From Thermoplasmata archaeon (lineage in GTDB: Archaea > Thermoplasmatota > Thermoplasmata > Thermoplasmatales > Thermoplasmataceae), in NCBI GenBank assembly GCA_021797955.1, contig JAJZYV010000048.1, positions 1 through 9,103 on the forward strand: a stretch of DNA of 9,103 nucleotides. The letters are read 5' to 3'. This document shows, in pieces, positions 2,155 through 8,770 of this stretch. Every line of letters begins with the position of its first letter. Position 1 is the stretch's first letter. The notes under the pieces are model-generated. The model had not been told where the DNA came from. It saw nothing but the letters and a program-made list of their open reading frames with translations, and ran no database searches. The translations under genes were made by a program, and so were the position numbers.

Positions 2155-4023
2155 TTAGGAGTAGAAGAGTAGCGAAATGAGTGTAAGAAGAAGTGCGATT
2201 ATGGTGTATGCCATATAGGTATTGATATTTCCGTTCATGAATTTTCTTGCAAAATACTTTGAAAATTTTGTGTAAAGCGAAGCTAAATCAGAAATTACTA
2301 CCCAGAAAATGTCAAAAGTTCTTTCACTGTATATTCCGTTAATCTTCTCTTCTCTTGTAAAATATACCTTTTTCATAATTAATCTGATTGAGTTAGAATA
2401 TGCAAAAGAAGTAAGCTTTTCCCCCATTGGCAATCCCCCATTCCATGGATTTACCTTCCTTTCTTTTCCTCTTAAAAGATAATATGTGGAAACAAACGGA
2501 ATAGAAATAAATATAATGTCAAATGTTGGAGATATAAATCCAAAATAGCCCTTAACTCCTGGGGAGACAATGAGAAAACCCTGAGGGATATCTTTCAATG
2601 TACCGAGAAATTGAATGTTACTTATTCCTGTAAAATTCGCAATAACAGGATTGAATAAAATAATCATTAGTGGCGCAATAATACCCATAATCAGCACTGC
2701 GGGACCTGCTACTGATAGAGGAGTTCTTACATCTGTTGAATTTGATCTTTCCTTTCTGTTCATTGACATGAATGAAAAATACTTAGTGAAAGCTATTATT
2801 GACATCCCTGCACCCAAGGCAGCAAGACTTCCTGCAAAAATGGCAGTAAGGGAGATATATGTCTTTGGCTCGGTGGAAGTAATGAATAGAGATTCAAGCA
2901 ACATCCATTCACCAATACCTCCTCCAAGGGGTATTAGACCCATGAGTGAGATGGCAGAAACACCAAATGCGAACCTTGAGAAACCTCGTATGGAACTTCC
3001 ATTTACTTTATTAAGATCTTTATTTTCAGAAACTGCAGTGGAAATGAACATTGTTGTCTTTGCCAATGCATGTGCGGTTGCATAAACGAGTACTGCAATA
3101 ATGGTAAAACCCGCCAGATCAACATTACCATAATACATATTTATTATAAACAAACCAATCAACGTGAGCATTGCCCCGCAATTTTCAATGGTACTGTAAG
3201 CGGGGAGCATTTTACTGTTTTCAGATGACACCGCATATATGGAAGCCATAAGGAGAGAGAATGATCCAATAATCATTAGAGCTATTCCAATTGATACGTA
3301 CGGTAAGGTCTCCAAAATAACAAGTCTCATTGTTGCATAAATTGCAACGGTCGTCATGGCTGCGCTGAAAATAATCGAACCGTTTGTAGGTGCTTCACCA
3401 TGAGCTATTGGTAGCCATTCAACCATCTGAAGAGGAATTATACCCATCTTAATCATGAAACCTATGAGTGCTACGAACAGGATATAGGGATTCACATTCA
3501 TTGTTACCATATTCAATGTTCCTGTGTAGAAGAAAATACCTGCGAAGGCAACCCCAAGGAATAGCGTTGATAGTTCACCAAAAGCCAGAAATACAAATGG
3601 AGGGAATGCCAGCGAAGTTCTCTTGTATCCTATGATAAGATAACCGAAGATGCTCATACCTTCCCAGAAAAGAATTAGGGTAAGATAATTAGATGACATG
3701 ATTACACCCATCATAGAATAAATGGAGAGTGAGTAAGCAAAGGCAATGATTCTGTTCGTATTCACATAATATAATGAAAATATACTGTCAAGAAATTCTA
3801 TGAGGCCCAGAATAAAAAGGAAGGCTCCAGAGAGTTTATCAAGAGAAAATGAAAGATATCCCATTGAGAAACTGCCTATTTTAATTTTGTCTAAAAGGAA
3901 AAGTAGTGAAAGAGCAATTATGGCAAAAGAGATAATTGCACTGGCAATGTATGAACTTCTCCTGTTAATTATTGCTATGATTGAAGGAATGAAAAGTAAT
4001 ATCAATATAATTGCCAGAATCAT
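2155..4023 (-). CDS. hyfB: HyfB-like (NuoL-family) antiporter-like membrane subunit of an Ehr-type complex
   Basis: A large proton-translocating subunit of the NuoL/MrpA-like family, very hydrophobic with roughly 14-16 membrane helices in 622 residues. Hallmark residues are present: E121 in LILFWEG, K192 in GFMIKMGIIPLQ before EWLPIAHGEAPTNGS, K271 in SENSKMLPAYSTIENCG, H318 and K322 in ATAHALAKTTMF, and E372 in GGIGEW. After the antiporter core comes a C-terminal extension with PWNGGLPMGEKLTSFAYS (about 526-543), equivalent to the WxCG-containing tail of HyfB/HycC but without its Cys. The true start is taken as the ATG whose ATGA overlaps the stop of the small-subunit gene, matching every other junction in the operon. 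A start at 4083 would add 20 polar residues encoded inside the previous gene. It is the last gene of the operon. The HyfB assignment is firmer than any statement about which ion it moves. Confidence 0.88.
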   Translation of the reverse strand: MILAIILILLFIPSIIAIINRRSSYIASAIISFAIIALSLLFLLDKIKIGSFSMGYLSFSLDKLSGAFLFILGLIEFLDSIFSLYYVNTNRIIAFAYSLSIYSMMGVIMSSNYLTLILFWEGMSIFGYLIIGYKRTSLAFPPFVFLAFGELSTLFLGVAFAGIFFYTGTLNMVTMNVNPYILFVALIGFMIKMGIIPLQMVEWLPIAHGEAPTNGSIIFSAAMTTVAIYATMRLVILETLPYVSIGIALMIIGSFSLLMASIYAVSSENSKMLPAYSTIENCGAMLTLIGLFIINMYYGNVDLAGFTIIAVLVYATAHALAKTTMFISTAVSENKDLNKVNGSSIRGFSRFAFGVSAISLMGLIPLGGGIGEWMLLESLFITSTEPKTYISLTAIFAGSLAALGAGMSIIAFTKYFSFMSMNRKERSNSTDVRTPLSVAGPAVLIMGIIAPLMIILFNPVIANFTGISNIQFLGTLKDIPQGFLIVSPGVKGYFGFISPTFDIIFISIPFVSTYYLLRGKERKVNPWNGGLPMGEKLTSFAYSNSIRLIMKKVYFTREEKINGIYSERTFDIFWVVISDLASLYTKFSKYFARKFMNGNINTYMAYTIIALLLTLISLLFYS

Positions 4024-4652
4024 GAATAACCGCCCCTCGCACGTATGATAGCATCCAGAATGATAAAGGGATCCGGAGGACAACCTCCAATAATCACATC
4101 TGCGTCCAGAACCTTTGATAGAGATTCTCCGAGTATACTACCTGAAGCAGGGCACGCTCCCATGGCAAAGACCAGTTTTGGTTCCGCCATGATGTCATAT
4201 GCCTCCTTAACTATCTGTTTCATTTTTTCAGCCAAAACCCCTATGACAAAAATTGCATCAGCCTGCTTTGGCGTATTTACAAAGAATATACCAAGCCGAT
4301 TCATGTCATAGAAGGGATTGCCGAGAGCATGAAGCTCTGAGTTGCATGCCCCACAACTTCCTGAATCAATAACATAAATTTTAAGAGATTTCATAAGTGC
4401 GGGCTGTGTTCTGTAAATTATTGAGTTATTCGGATTAAGAGAAGGTGAAAAACTGGAACTGCACCTTCCACAAGATATACAACCTCTCAAGTCAACCTTG
4501 TCGTTACTAATTGCCTTAGTAGGACAATCATCATAGGAACCCTTTGTGTGAATTGGCAGTGTCGACCATGGGCTGATAATTTCAGGTTTTTCTTTTGGAA
4601 ATCTGCTTGTTATTACCCCTTTTTTAATACCTCTTAGAATCCACCTGCTCAT
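4020..4652 (-). CDS. hyfI: HyfI/NuoB-like small subunit fused to an N-terminal single-cluster ferredoxin-like domain
   Basis: This 210-residue protein is the electron-transfer subunit of the peripheral arm. Residues 1-80 form a reduced HyfH-like ferredoxin domain: DCPTKAI supplies C43, and GCISCGRC supplies C58, C61 and C64, enough for one [4Fe-4S] cluster instead of the usual two. Residues 90-210 are the small-subunit domain. DSGSCGACNSEL (C100, C103), GACPAS (C167) and GGCPPDP (C191) give the four ligands of the proximal cluster. The spaced CxxC is of the hydrogenase type; complex I NuoB has two adjacent cysteines. All cluster ligands are thus intact although the partner large subunit lacks a Ni-Fe site. 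HyfH and HyfI are separate genes in E. coli, so this fusion is a compact form. It overlaps both neighbours by ATGA. The function in electron transfer is secure; the donor is unknown. Confidence 0.9.
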   Translation of the reverse strand: MSRWILRGIKKGVITSRFPKEKPEIISPWSTLPIHTKGSYDDCPTKAISNDKVDLRGCISCGRCSSSFSPSLNPNNSIIYRTQPALMKSLKIYVIDSGSCGACNSELHALGNPFYDMNRLGIFFVNTPKQADAIFVIGVLAEKMKQIVKEAYDIMAEPKLVFAMGACPASGSILGESLSKVLDADVIIGGCPPDPFIILDAIIRARGGYS

Positions 4653-5857
4653 GATATCACACTCATTTCGCTTATCCAGATCCCAAAACTCTCATAGGCA
4701 AAGGGGAAGTCAGTTTTAACATTGCCCTGCATGCCAAGTAAAAATCCTTCCAGATTGACTAAAGATGGTGGTCTCACATAGACATAATCAATATTACCGT
4801 CCTTTATCTCAATGTATAAGGTGCAATCACCAGATGGTGTCTCTATCCTGTTCAGGGATCTTCCAGTAAACTCCTCCGGCTTTGTAGTAAGGTTCTCAGT
4901 TATGTCCATTAAGTTTATTGCCTGTTCAATTATCCTTTCAGATTCAGAAATTTCCTGGGCTCTCACAAGGAATCTCGCCAGAGAATCAGAACCATTCTCA
5001 GAAACTACATTGAATTTTAATCCTTCATAATATGGATCATTTCCTCTAACATCATAACTTACGCCTGTTGCTCTCAGAGCGGGACCGCATAACCATGGTC
5101 TCTCAATAGTGCAAGTCTTTTGTATCCTGTCAATGAAAATCCTGGAACCGGAAAGAAGTCTCAGAATATCTTTAAATTCTTTCACAATTTCGGGTAATTC
5201 CTCGGATAAAAGATCAATACGAATTTCTCTGGTAATACCTCCTATGGTATTTATTCCAAAAAAATAGCGGTGCCCAAAGGCCTTTGAAATGAGACGCAAC
5301 ATCCTCTCTCTTAGGGCATTCAGATGAAATGATGCAATATTTTGGGATGCTGCTTCACAAAGGCGGGTTATCACAAAAAGGTGTGAAGCAATCCTTTCCA
5401 ATTCCACCATTATAACCCGTGTCAGTTTTGTGGATTGTGCAGTTTTAATATTCAGAGATTTTTCAATTGCCCTGCAAAACAACGTTGAATAGGACGCACT
5501 ATGGAAACCATTAAAACGCTCCATCTTCAGAAGTGCTCTGTCAATAGGTTCTCCCCTGATGTTTAATATTCTCTCTTTGAATCTGGGAAAAGTGCTCATG
5601 GAAATGATTCTTTCACCGTTAGTATACATTTTGAAAAGAATTGATTCGATAACCCCTCCCATGCTGGGTCCGTAATCAAATCCTATGATATTTTCTCCTG
5701 CTGTACTATGTTCAAATTCCCCTTTCAGGCAATTTAGATAATCCAGATGATCAAGGTCATTCTCAGATGTTCTTAGAGGTATATCTGAACCTCTAAGAAT
5801 CACATATTGCTTGCCTCCATTAGTGAATATACCCTCCACAATATCATCTGTATTCAT
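4649..5857 (-). CDS. hyfG: HyfG/NuoD-like large subunit without Ni-Fe cysteine ligands (Ehr-type)
   Basis: The 402-residue protein is homologous to the large subunit of group 4 [NiFe] hydrogenases and to NuoD. Aligned by eye, MERFNGFHSASYS (residues 112-124) matches the ERVCGICGFAHS block, so the first two metal-ligand cysteines are N116 and H119. At the C-terminus FPFAYE (384-389) falls where DPCxxC is expected, giving F386 and E389. GPSM (63-66) replaces the GPxH block. The six cysteines present (43, 128, 167, 249, 257, 345) never form CxxC. Other family features remain: VELERIASHL (151-160) and the IETPSGDCTLYI region (338-349). The long NuoC-like N-terminal domain of HycE/HyfG is absent, as in archaeal membrane-bound hydrogenases. 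A good GGAGG site precedes the ATG. It is therefore unlikely to evolve or oxidise H2; Ehr-type complexes share this loss. Its substrate is unknown. Confidence 0.9.
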   Translation of the reverse strand: MNTDDIVEGIFTNGGKQYVILRGSDIPLRTSENDLDHLDYLNCLKGEFEHSTAGENIIGFDYGPSMGGVIESILFKMYTNGERIISMSTFPRFKERILNIRGEPIDRALLKMERFNGFHSASYSTLFCRAIEKSLNIKTAQSTKLTRVIMVELERIASHLFVITRLCEAASQNIASFHLNALRERMLRLISKAFGHRYFFGINTIGGITREIRIDLLSEELPEIVKEFKDILRLLSGSRIFIDRIQKTCTIERPWLCGPALRATGVSYDVRGNDPYYEGLKFNVVSENGSDSLARFLVRAQEISESERIIEQAINLMDITENLTTKPEEFTGRSLNRIETPSGDCTLYIEIKDGNIDYVYVRPPSLVNLEGFLLGMQGNVKTDFPFAYESFGIWISEMSVIS

Positions 5858-7209
5858 GTTATCATTCCTCCAAGGTAAAAGAATGTAATACCAAGGGACA
5901 TAATCACCGTGGTAATCGTTACCAGAATCTGGCTAAGGGCCGGTTCCCCCTTTCTCTCTGTTTCGTTTCCGTCAAATACCATAGTTGAAACTTTGTGTAT
6001 TACAGACAGTGAAATTATGAAAAGAGTTATTATTAAAATTATTACGGCTGCTACCTGCCCAATAGAAATTAACTGATAAATGATGAGAAACTCACCAATA
6101 AAAGTGGCAAAAGGCGGTGCTCCAGTTACTGCCAAGGATGAAAGGATCAGCGTTGATGAGGTATATGGCATTCGATTTCTCATCCCCCGAATCATTGAAA
6201 TGTTTCGAGTGCCATACATTTCCAGAATGTTGCCAGATGAATAGAATGCACCCGATTTACCAAAAGCATGAGAAAGGAGGATGAGTATTGCCCCTAGAAA
6301 TCCAATGCCTCCTGTTATGAGCCCTAACAATGCAATAGACATGTTCTCCATTGTAGAATATGCAAACATCCTCTTTGTCTGAGTCTGCGACGGCATCACC
6401 ATTGCAACGAATATGAGGGATGCGAAAATAAACACAAGATATATTCCCTGCACCGGTCCGACTGAGGTTACGGAATAGAATTCATAGAGACAATACACTG
6501 CAACAGGAAGGAGAATACCAGAAAACATGGCACTTATCTCCGAAGGCGCCTGGGAGTGGGCATCAGGGAGCCATGTATGCATTGGAAATATGCCAATTTT
6601 TGTACCGAATCCAATCAGTGCAGTAACGCCTGCAATGGCAAGAAGAGGGTTATAGACATTGATAAGGGATATGTCAGTTATTGTTAAATGCCTGTAAACA
6701 TCAAATATGAGTATTACAGATATTAGCGCTATGGCTAGTCCCGATGACACAAGAATAACATATCTCCATGCTGCCTCAAGTTCATTTCTTCCTCTTTCAA
6801 CGATTAGAAGGAGGGCTGATGATGCTGTAGTGGCTTCCAACCCTATCCACATTAGACCAAAATTATCTATGATCAGGGTAAAGAGCATGGTAAATGTAAA
6901 CAAATTTATTAGGGAGTAATGAAGTTTCAAATTTTTAGATTCTCCCAGTTTTTTATGATAGCCGGATGCAAATATGGAGGAGAAAAGATAAACAAAAGAC
7001 ACCGTAAAAACAAGATATCTGTTTAGATCATTTAGAAAGAATGGTCCATATATGCCATTGGAAGTGAAGAGGAGAATAATGGAATTGGCTGCAGTTATAA
7101 GTGCTCCTGCGATACTAATCTCCTTAAAATGCCTTAAAAAGTACGATCCTGAAGTAAGAACCGGTATTGATAAAATAAAGTACATATAATACTGACTTGA
7201 GAGTATCAT
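5854..7209 (-). CDS. hyfF: HyfF-like (NuoM/NuoN-family) antiporter-like membrane subunit
   Basis: A 451-residue integral membrane protein with about 13-14 helices, of the NuoL/M/N antiporter-like family. Key residues for ion translocation are all visible: E125 in MWIGLEATTASS, K204 in GFGTKIGIFPMHTWLPDAHSQAPS (the most typical block, residues 201-223), K279-R280 in QTKRMFAYSTMENMS, H314 and K318 in LSHAFGKSGAF, and E373 in FATFIGEF. The sequence shows no C-terminal HyfB/NuoL-type extension, so HyfF or HyfD is the closest named match; position between hyfE and hyfG favours HyfF. The start has a GGAGATGAT-type binding site, and the gene overlaps the previous stop by ATGA. It presumably forms the inner part of the membrane arm, next to the hyfC- and hyfE-like subunits. 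Confidence 0.88.
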   Translation of the reverse strand: MILSSQYYMYFILSIPVLTSGSYFLRHFKEISIAGALITAANSIILLFTSNGIYGPFFLNDLNRYLVFTVSFVYLFSSIFASGYHKKLGESKNLKLHYSLINLFTFTMLFTLIIDNFGLMWIGLEATTASSALLLIVERGRNELEAAWRYVILVSSGLAIALISVILIFDVYRHLTITDISLINVYNPLLAIAGVTALIGFGTKIGIFPMHTWLPDAHSQAPSEISAMFSGILLPVAVYCLYEFYSVTSVGPVQGIYLVFIFASLIFVAMVMPSQTQTKRMFAYSTMENMSIALLGLITGGIGFLGAILILLSHAFGKSGAFYSSGNILEMYGTRNISMIRGMRNRMPYTSSTLILSSLAVTGAPPFATFIGEFLIIYQLISIGQVAAVIILIITLFIISLSVIHKVSTMVFDGNETERKGEPALSQILVTITTVIMSLGITFFYLGGMIT

Positions 7210-7826
7210 CCGATCATCTCCTGAATGTTTTCTGTTTCAAGTGTTTCTGATATTAGAACTGCGGAAACAATAACAAGGGCAAGAACATCAAGTAATACGC
7301 TGATTTCAACTATGAGGGGTAGTGAAATAATGCCAAGACTTAGTAAAATAATTGCGTTCTCTTCCTCAATATATCCACTGAATTGAGCTATCTTGTTTTT
7401 TCTTGAGGCGATAAGAAGCATACCCTGGATCATCATGGCAAAACCTATGCCTCCAATATTACTTCCAGTATAGGGGAAAAAGACTTCGTGATATACTGCA
7501 AGAGATATAACTAGTAAAACAACACTGAGTATTGTTATGGATGGAATACCTTTTGAAAGCTCCCTGAACATATTCCCCCTTTTAGGGAGTTTTCTGTAAA
7601 GGATATATGCCGTAAGAAATCCGCGAAGTAGTGCTGTGAGTATTCCAAGGATCACAAGATCAATTGAGTCAGTTGCGATTCCGAGATAGATTGCATATAC
7701 AGAGAGAAGAAGTGATTGAACAATTATTACATGCACCTTAGACATGATATACGTTCCAATCTGTGCCCAGATTCCGGTAAACAATAAACTAACTGCTATA
7801 ACATTTAAAATTTCTACATTTGTCAT
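7206..7826 (-). CDS. hyfE: HyfE-like membrane subunit (NuoK-related region)
   Basis: A 206-residue protein with about six hydrophobic segments, the usual size of HyfE. The diagnostic part is the C-terminal half: YIEEENAIILLSLGI (152-166), then SLPLIVEISVLLDVLALVIV (168-187), matching the ENG...PLIVE..VLLDVL pattern of HyfE. E156/N157, E174 and D180 are the conserved polar positions. In the complex it corresponds to the NuoK-like element that links the NuoH-like subunit to the antiporter-like subunits. A polar cytoplasmic loop (YRKLPKRGNMFRELSK, 77-92) divides the two halves. The ribosome binding site GGGAGGT is the strongest in the operon, and the ATG overlaps the upstream stop codon as ATGA. 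Confidence 0.87.
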   Translation of the reverse strand: MTNVEILNVIAVSLLFTGIWAQIGTYIMSKVHVIIVQSLLLSVYAIYLGIATDSIDLVILGILTALLRGFLTAYILYRKLPKRGNMFRELSKGIPSITILSVVLLVISLAVYHEVFFPYTGSNIGGIGFAMMIQGMLLIASRKNKIAQFSGYIEEENAIILLSLGIISLPLIVEISVLLDVLALVIVSAVLISETLETENIQEMIG

Positions 7827-8770
7827 ACTAAACCTCCCAGGACAAATATGACAACAGAGAATATTGACAGGGTAAACGATACTGCCAGATAATCGGCAAT
7901 TTTAAACAGTCTAACCTTAGCAAGGCTCTGTTCAATAAATATTACAATGAGGATCAAAATTATCCACTTTCCTATCATAATGGGGATATCCTCAAGGGCA
8001 CCAAGAACAGAATTCTGCATAAACCATGGAAACAAGAAGACATTGAGTAGAACGGATCCCAAGAGGTATTGTTTCATCCATGACGACTCCTTTATGAGAA
8101 ATAAATCACGGCCGCCGTATTCAAACGTTCTCCCTTCATCAATCATTCCCATTTCCCATAAGCCAGAACTCTCCAGAGGTAGTTTTCCAGTTTCAAACAA
8201 AAATATCATGAAGAAAGCTATCATTGACAGAATGTGAGTGAGCGACAGATAAGTTGTGAAGCTTGTGGCTATGGATTCGTTTGTAATGTAGGGATTGTTC
8301 GTTCCGGTCTGGATCGCCACGGCAAAAAATACAAGAATAAGGGTGGGCTCAGCAAGTGCTGAGAACGTTGCCGATCTGCTCGCTCCCAATGCAGAATAGT
8401 TGCTACCTGAGTCAAGTGCGGCTAGTATGAGGATGACAGAAGCCAGGGAAAACAACATTGCTCCTCCAAGAAAATCAACCATTGGTGCAAAATCTGTTGG
8501 CTCAGGTATGACAACCGGTATCACAAATGATATGGTAAAGAGAATGGAAAACACCAGGTAAGGAGCAATTCTATATATTCCCCCACCGCTGGTAGTTGTA
8601 TTTCTTTCCTTTACAAGATATTTATACAGGTCATAATAGGGCTGTAGAACTGGTGGGCCTCTCCTCGATTCTGTTTTTGCCTTAAGATTCTCATATATTC
8701 CCTGAACCAGAGGTGCAAGAATTAAAACTCCTATAACCTGAATAGCCGTTTCTATGATGCCCCCTATCAT
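7823..8770 (-). CDS. hyfC: HyfC-like (NuoH-family) membrane subunit that anchors the peripheral arm
   Basis: The 315-residue product has about eight membrane helices and is homologous to NuoH/HycD/HyfC, the subunit that contacts the small and large subunits and transmits redox energy to the membrane arm. Family blocks: ESRRGPPVLQPYYDLYKYLVKE (34-55, cytoplasmic loop), LDSGSNYSALGASRSATFSALAEP (119-142), and FETGKLPLESSGLWEMGMIDEGRTFEYGGRDL (192-223). The last of these carries the charged residues E193, E206, D211/E212 and E217 that line the link between the redox site and the channel. It is the first operon gene. Its ATG follows GGGTGTAATA, an acceptable but modest ribosome binding site, and a hairpin lies just upstream. 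Homology is certain; which quinone-like or other ligand, if any, it binds cannot be told. Confidence 0.9.
   Translation of the reverse strand: MIGGIIETAIQVIGVLILAPLVQGIYENLKAKTESRRGPPVLQPYYDLYKYLVKERNTTTSGGGIYRIAPYLVFSILFTISFVIPVVIPEPTDFAPMVDFLGGAMLFSLASVILILAALDSGSNYSALGASRSATFSALAEPTLILVFFAVAIQTGTNNPYITNESIATSFTTYLSLTHILSMIAFFMIFLFETGKLPLESSGLWEMGMIDEGRTFEYGGRDLFLIKESSWMKQYLLGSVLLNVFLFPWFMQNSVLGALEDIPIMIGKWIILILIVIFIEQSLAKVRLFKIADYLAVSFTLSIFSVVIFVLGGLV

Follow-up and report, generated by a model that had tools for sequence, protein, structure and literature searches.

The 9,103-nucleotide stretch of a Thermoplasmata archaeon genome analyzed here (the window; contig JAJZYV010000048.1) carries a six-gene operon for a membrane complex, and its host is related to acid-mine archaea. 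Judged from its sequence, the protein encoded at 4649..5857 is the large subunit of a six-subunit Ehr complex in the complex I and group 4 hydrogenase superfamily, and it has none (0/4) of the four Ni-Fe-binding cysteines of a group 4 [NiFe]-hydrogenase. The complex is a member of the already known Ehr family, and the basic observation, the lack of an Ni-Fe site, has already been published for close relatives, the putative group 4 hydrogenases of the AMD-plasmas (PMC3750248, passages on these complexes). The same passages give no cavity residues, which were assigned in the present analysis. The large subunit and the positions that matter most are listed below.

4649..5857, minus strand: Ehr-type large subunit, 402 amino acids, the subject of this report (open reading frame list, Pfam, protein search, alignment, tree, and structural alignment)
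5645..5647, minus strand: E71, equivalent to the hydrogenase proton glutamate MbhL E21/HycE E193 (alignment; role of E21 as given in the relevant part of PMC7684303)
5501..5512, minus strand: N116-G-F-H119, in the place of the hydrogenase N-terminal CGIC (alignment with HycE and family rows)
5270..5272, minus strand: H196, family specific (family alignment)
4691..4693, minus strand: E389, conserved and outside the ligand positions (family alignment)
4667..4678, minus strand: W394-I-S-E397, in the place of the hydrogenase C-terminal CxxC, HycE C531/C534 (sequence and structural alignment)

The 402-residue frame lies on the minus strand and has no internal stops, while stops abound when this interval is read on the plus strand. 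Six cysteines (43, 128, 167, 249, 257, and 345) are scattered along the protein and none are spaced as CxxC, and the sole Pfam match is PF00346 (Complex1_49kDa). An intact frame without any CxxC motif, belonging to an Ehr-type protein and not to a hydrogenase, was what the original prediction had described, and all of this was borne out. Its expectation that automated annotation would mislead was also correct in part of the databases: among the best 120 of 554 matches at E 1e-5, some are named "formate hydrogenlyase" or "Ni,Fe-hydrogenase III large subunit" and others "NADH-quinone oxidoreductase subunit D-related protein." The first two names are no basis for modeling H2 metabolism.

Sequence alignment places N116 on Escherichia coli HycE C241 and H119 on C244, as had been read for the N-terminal block. 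At the C terminus, the earlier assignment of the DPCxxC region to FPFAYE was in the wrong register: GSLDPCYSC of HycE pairs with ESFGIWISE, so that C531 corresponds to W394 and C534 to E397. FPFAYE (residues 384 to 389) lies upstream of the ligand motif, and the E389 column holds Gly or Ala in the hydrogenase and NuoD rows. A structural alignment that ends on model residue 400 and HycE residue 537 gives the same register, with no cysteine at the ligand positions, and neither the sequence alignment nor the structural end points offer an alternative register that would place cysteines there. In a family alignment of 86 rows with less than 80% mutual identity, all four positions are free of cysteine in 77 rows, and the other 9 carry a single one, possibly as leftovers or reversals; P0092, P0097, P0099, L048, and L050 are examples of the latter. 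The quartet N, H, W, E occurs in 49 of the 86 rows.

Conservation in the same alignment is uneven across the putative cavity. G392 is invariant (86/86), E71 is Glu in 84 rows and Asp in 2, the family-specific H196 is kept in 81, and the E389 column contains 78 Glu and 7 Asp. Among the ligand positions, E397 is Glu in 68 rows and Asp in 18, W394 is Trp in 56, N116 is Asn in 60 and another residue in 26, and the H119 column is His in 50, Phe in 28, and Tyr in 5. Within the 60 rows that have N116, the remaining residues are kept in 50 (H119), 56 (W394), 59 (E397), 60 (E71), 60 (H196), and 59 (E389) cases. The E71 column is Gly in all 10 NuoD rows, and the complex I quinone residues H38 and Y87 of Nqo4 align with I70 and G117. 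E71, H196, E389, and E397 are thus candidate cavity residues by alignment; no published assignment of Ehr cavity residues was found in the open-licence literature, which was not covered exhaustively.

The idea that the cavity had been remodeled for another ligand, with N116, H119, and E389 as candidates for binding it, stood only in part. E389 is highly conserved but lies off the ligand positions, constraint on N116 and H119 is confined to one part of the family, and the list had overlooked W394 and E397 as well as E71 and H196, of which the last two are better conserved than N116 and H119. Remodeling under constraint is supported in part by these alignments. A metal site read from N116 and H119 is not a general feature, with Phe at H119 in 28/86 rows and N116 replaced in 26/86.

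The six genes, all on the minus strand, encode in order HyfC-like, HyfE-like, HyfF-like, large, small, and HyfB-like subunits, and every one of the five junctions overlaps by 4 bases provided that HyfB begins at its ATG at 4023; a TTG start would give a longer frame, of 642 amino acids, that extends to 4083. This agrees with the earlier description of a tight operon that is not decaying. The partner genes are as follows.

7823..8770, minus strand: HyfC/HycD/NuoH-like membrane anchor, 315 amino acids, first gene of the operon (PF00146, 8.4e-33)
7206..7826, minus strand: HyfE-like membrane subunit, 206 amino acids (hydrogenase 4 membrane subunit, 3.2e-07, under the curated cutoff)
5854..7209, minus strand: HyfF-like antiporter subunit, 451 amino acids, pump residues E125 and K204 kept (PF00361; hydrogenase 4 subunit F over the cutoff)
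4020..4652, minus strand: small subunit, 210 amino acids, a one-cluster ferredoxin-like domain fused to a NuoB/HycG-like domain (PF01058; best PDB match MbhJ, 6cfw_J)
4461..4526, minus strand: ferredoxin-like cluster cysteines C43, C58, C61, and C64 of the small subunit (Cys in 38 or 39 of 39 rows)
4344..4355, minus strand: proximal cluster CxxC (C100, C103) of the small subunit, together with C167 and C191, in hydrogenase spacing (alignment)
2155..4023, minus strand: HyfB-like antiporter subunit, 622 amino acids from the ATG at 4023, with E141 and K212 kept (numbering of the 642-residue frame)

By its sequence, the small subunit has cysteines for two [4Fe-4S] clusters. C43, C58, C61, and C64 presumably bind one of them, given their spacing and the familiar ferredoxin pattern. 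Each of the eight cysteines is kept in 38 or 39 of 39 rows (rows of up to 29% identity or up to 150 amino acids left out). The proximal-cluster motif aligns with MbhJ without gaps, which makes the motif hydrogenase-like, and its four cysteines are kept in 39/39 rows. The pump Glu and Lys are conserved in 37/39 and 39/39 rows of HyfF and in 39/39 rows each of HyfB. The large subunit is encoded together with NuoB-, NuoH-, and antiporter-like subunits, as is characteristic of Ehr.

Six peptide patterns, run against genome contigs, recovered two loci, in YP3.bin100 Thermoplasmata archaeon (L001, 70%) and in Thermoplasmatales archaeon E-plasma (L002, 71%). In the E-plasma assembly the large-subunit gene (L002, 10001-11211) is broken into two frames, with full-length relatives in other records. 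In addition to a genuine NuoD, both genomes (G001, E-plasma; G002, YP3) apparently have two separate Ehr large subunits, the loci concerned being G001 C3:132642-133676 (L049) and G002 C66 and C18, with the C18 copy standing outside the tree. In a tree of 70 rows, from which the broken L002 large subunit was omitted and for which L071 yielded no large subunit, 54 archaeal Cys-less rows form one clade (100/100). Its sister group consists of three longer Ehr-like rows ("Ehr-S"), with 100/100 on the joint branch, and the two together are separate from HycE/HyfG/MbhL and the ten NuoD rows. The tree holds three hydrogenases only and no published Ehr reference row, and the placement of MbhL is weakly supported (84/58). 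Absence of both Ni-Fe CxxC motifs and a branch separate from Ni-Fe hydrogenases and NuoD are what is expected of an Ehr protein. Ehr-S (L079, L080, and P0100) is a second type of Ehr: its large subunit is longer, its quartet reads S, N or T, S, and G, and the GPxH histidine is kept.

Among 200 Thermoplasmata genomes, 43 carry the family (match at E 9.9e-44 or better). HypD is found in 4/43 carriers versus 102/157 others (Fisher p 4e-11, shared ancestry ignored), and COX1 over its cutoff in 37/43 versus 38/157 (Fisher p 2e-13, likewise ignoring shared ancestry). Three unclassified genomes (G174, G159, and G064) were counted as noncarriers, and the result is nearly equal when they are omitted. 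Neither of the two closest relative genomes, E-plasma and YP3, has HypD. The Ehr-S loci L079 and L080 sit in HypD-bearing genomes, so the statement on HypD is limited to the archaeal clade and does not extend to Ehr at large. Cytochrome bd was searched for in 10 genomes; of the six COX1-less carriers, two (G058 and G077) have it. PF02621, which marks one route only to quinone, is present in 18 of 27 chosen genomes, E-plasma and YP3 included.

From sequence, the complex probably pumps protons with electrons from another reaction. We see about an even chance that it passes electrons from ferredoxin via two clusters to an acceptor in the former Ni-Fe cavity, most likely quinone, and thereby drives proton pumping. 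A soluble low-potential donor, most likely ferredoxin, would feed electrons into the two small-subunit clusters; on reaching the cavity, these electrons would meet an acceptor that E71 and E397, with E389, H196, and Y62, may bind and protonate. A membrane quinone of the host respiratory chain would be the most likely acceptor, held in a binding mode unlike that of complex I, and the reaction would drive pumping through HyfC, HyfF, and HyfB. The reverse direction, ferredoxin reduction driven by the proton motive force, could also operate. A wider and more tentative proposal, which we hold at somewhat under even chances, is that the complex I superfamily contains a fourth type of active site, that of the archaeal Ehr clade, distinct from Ni-Fe (hydrogenase), from an open Fe-S cluster (membrane-bound sulfane-sulfur reductase, MBS), and from the His/Tyr quinone site of complex I. 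It would be a carboxylate/His cavity (E71, H196, E389, and E397) in which the hydrogenase proton relay was retained after metal loss, and it would belong to a second proton pump that reduces quinone with electrons from ferredoxin, or runs in reverse, in archaea that are mostly aerobic.

Several observations weigh against a quinone-reducing, ferredoxin-fed pump. Its substrate and donor are both putative, and for related complexes formate dehydrogenase, not ferredoxin, has been proposed as the partner (passages of PMC3750248 and PMC6349859). Because I70 and G117 occupy the places of Nqo4 H38 and Y87, quinone binding would need a new mode. With a genuine NuoD already present in E-plasma and YP3, alongside other PF00346 proteins, the need for a second quinone reductase is not obvious. 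The co-occurrence of the complex with COX1 ignores shared ancestry, and 38 genomes have COX1 without the complex. COX1 and cytochrome bd are both missing from four carriers (G015, G061, G139, and G172), two of which, G015 and G061, have HypD. PF02621, of the one route searched, is missing in 9/27 genomes (G058, G022, G130, G163, G082, G052, G172, G015, and G061).

The foremost competitor, which we regard as unlikely though deserving of some weight, is a cavity that holds another ligand, some other metal ion or small soluble acceptor, bound by N116, H119, E397, and their neighbors. The constraint on these residues among the 60 N116 rows, and their metal- or substrate-capable side chains, speak for it. 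Across the family, however, H119 and N116 vary while the acids persist, so that a His/Asn metal site is not family wide, and no gene resembling a cofactor-making one flanks the operon at most loci, where neighbors were mostly compared by BLAST clusters and not identified. From the alignments, another ligand may still be bound in the family members that have N116 and H119. An MBS-like sulfane-sulfur reductase, reducing polysulfide at an open proximal cluster, is improbable. Some Thermoplasmatales respire sulfur. The MBS of Pyrococcus is moreover a Cys-depleted relative with a known substrate, likewise without Nqo4 H38/Y87, but its proximal motif is three residues shorter than that of the membrane-bound hydrogenase (MBH) and carries a three-Cys cluster (comparison in PMC7684303). 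The motif encoded in the window is gap free to MbhJ with four cysteines in 39/39 rows, MbhL E21, absent in MBS, is kept as E71, and 37/43 carriers have COX1.

A cryptic or unusual hydrogenase is scarcely credible: the hydrogenase-type fold, E71, the proximal cluster spacing, and some database names would fit, but none of the four Ni-Fe cysteines is present, no alternative register was found, and neither closest relative genome has HypD. We think just as little of a decaying hydrogenase remnant, for which the broken E-plasma frame could be cited, against an intact frame in the window, 4-base overlaps, conserved clusters and pump residues, and cavity acids conserved in 86 diverse homologues. Correcting the register and identifying the conserved cavity residues yields a short list of testable Ehr positions, and the set of candidate reactions is narrowed by the association of the complex with aerobic, mostly HypD-free Thermoplasmata genomes.

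Gene order was read with a simple gene caller in 43 stretches, the window included. The full six-gene order is present in 31, ten are cut by contig ends or were not resolved by the caller, and two (L079 and L080, both Ehr-S) differ. Neighboring genes mostly differ between loci and were rejected as a clue to the electron donor. Directly behind the last operon gene, a convergent universal stress protein gene (PF00582) occurs in 8/43 stretches (L041, L042, L069, L070, L071, L076, L079, and L080), not at the window, L001, or L002; these loci belong to three distant parts of the tree, Ehr-S included, L071 having no tree row. The window also encodes, on the minus strand, an MNT nucleotidyltransferase (52-435; PF01909) and a HEPN protein (411-818; PF05168), a toxin-antitoxin-like pair of which the MNT protein weakly matches PADLOC candidate models; a similar pair, judged by eye, lies behind the operon in L002. 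On the plus strand, 1136-1993 encodes a protein that by eye looks secreted or surface anchored and has no Pfam match, and a 1,256-residue relative is found downstream of the operon in L001. Ahead of the operon and on the opposite strand, L001 (2344-4167) and L002 (4247-6025) have genes that by eye are Rieske-, thioredoxin reductase-, and thioredoxin-like.

Ehr complexes are found in both archaea and bacteria, and those of Sulfobacillus (PMC4378227), ammonia-oxidizing archaea (PMC10432482), and comammox Nitrospira (PMC10284858) are described as being of unknown function in the passages that treat them; HydDB was trained to exclude Ehr as not metabolizing H2 (PMC5037454, section on this class). 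E-plasma, one of the two nearest loci here (L002), is entered as Eplasma in Table 1 of the 2013 paper as bearing a putative hydrogenase complex (PMC3750248, the table). In the parts of PMC3750248 and PMC4378227 that describe them, the AMD-plasma complexes and the Sulfobacillus Ehr have, as here, a group 4-like large subunit without both Ni-binding motifs, and the latter has six syntenic genes like NuoH, NuoL, HyfE, and HyfB. E. coli formate hydrogenlyase and hydrogenase 4 (HycE and HyfG) differ from the window complex, which lacks the Ni-Fe cysteines, has no maturation gene among its six, and has a ferredoxin-like part of one cluster fused to the small subunit. Pyrococcus MBH resembles it in MbhJ, the best match of the small subunit, and in MbhL E21 (E71) but has all four Ni-Fe cysteines. 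Pyrococcus MBS keeps two cysteines (MbsL C85 and C385) and lacks E21 and the fourth proximal cysteine (PMC7684303, the residues compared there), whereas the window complex has no cysteine at the four positions, E71, and a four-Cys motif, MbsL itself being outside the alignment. With complex I (NuoD/Nqo4 and NuoB) it shares the fold, the lack of Ni-Fe cysteines, and an acidic residue where HycE has C534 (E or D in 10/10 NuoD rows); it differs in its separate branch, in lacking the quinone His/Tyr, and in a hydrogenase-type CxxC, as in HycG, in place of the adjacent cysteines of the NuoB N2 cluster. These mismatches with MBS, hydrogenases, and strict complex I lower the case for membership in each, not the general likeness to them.
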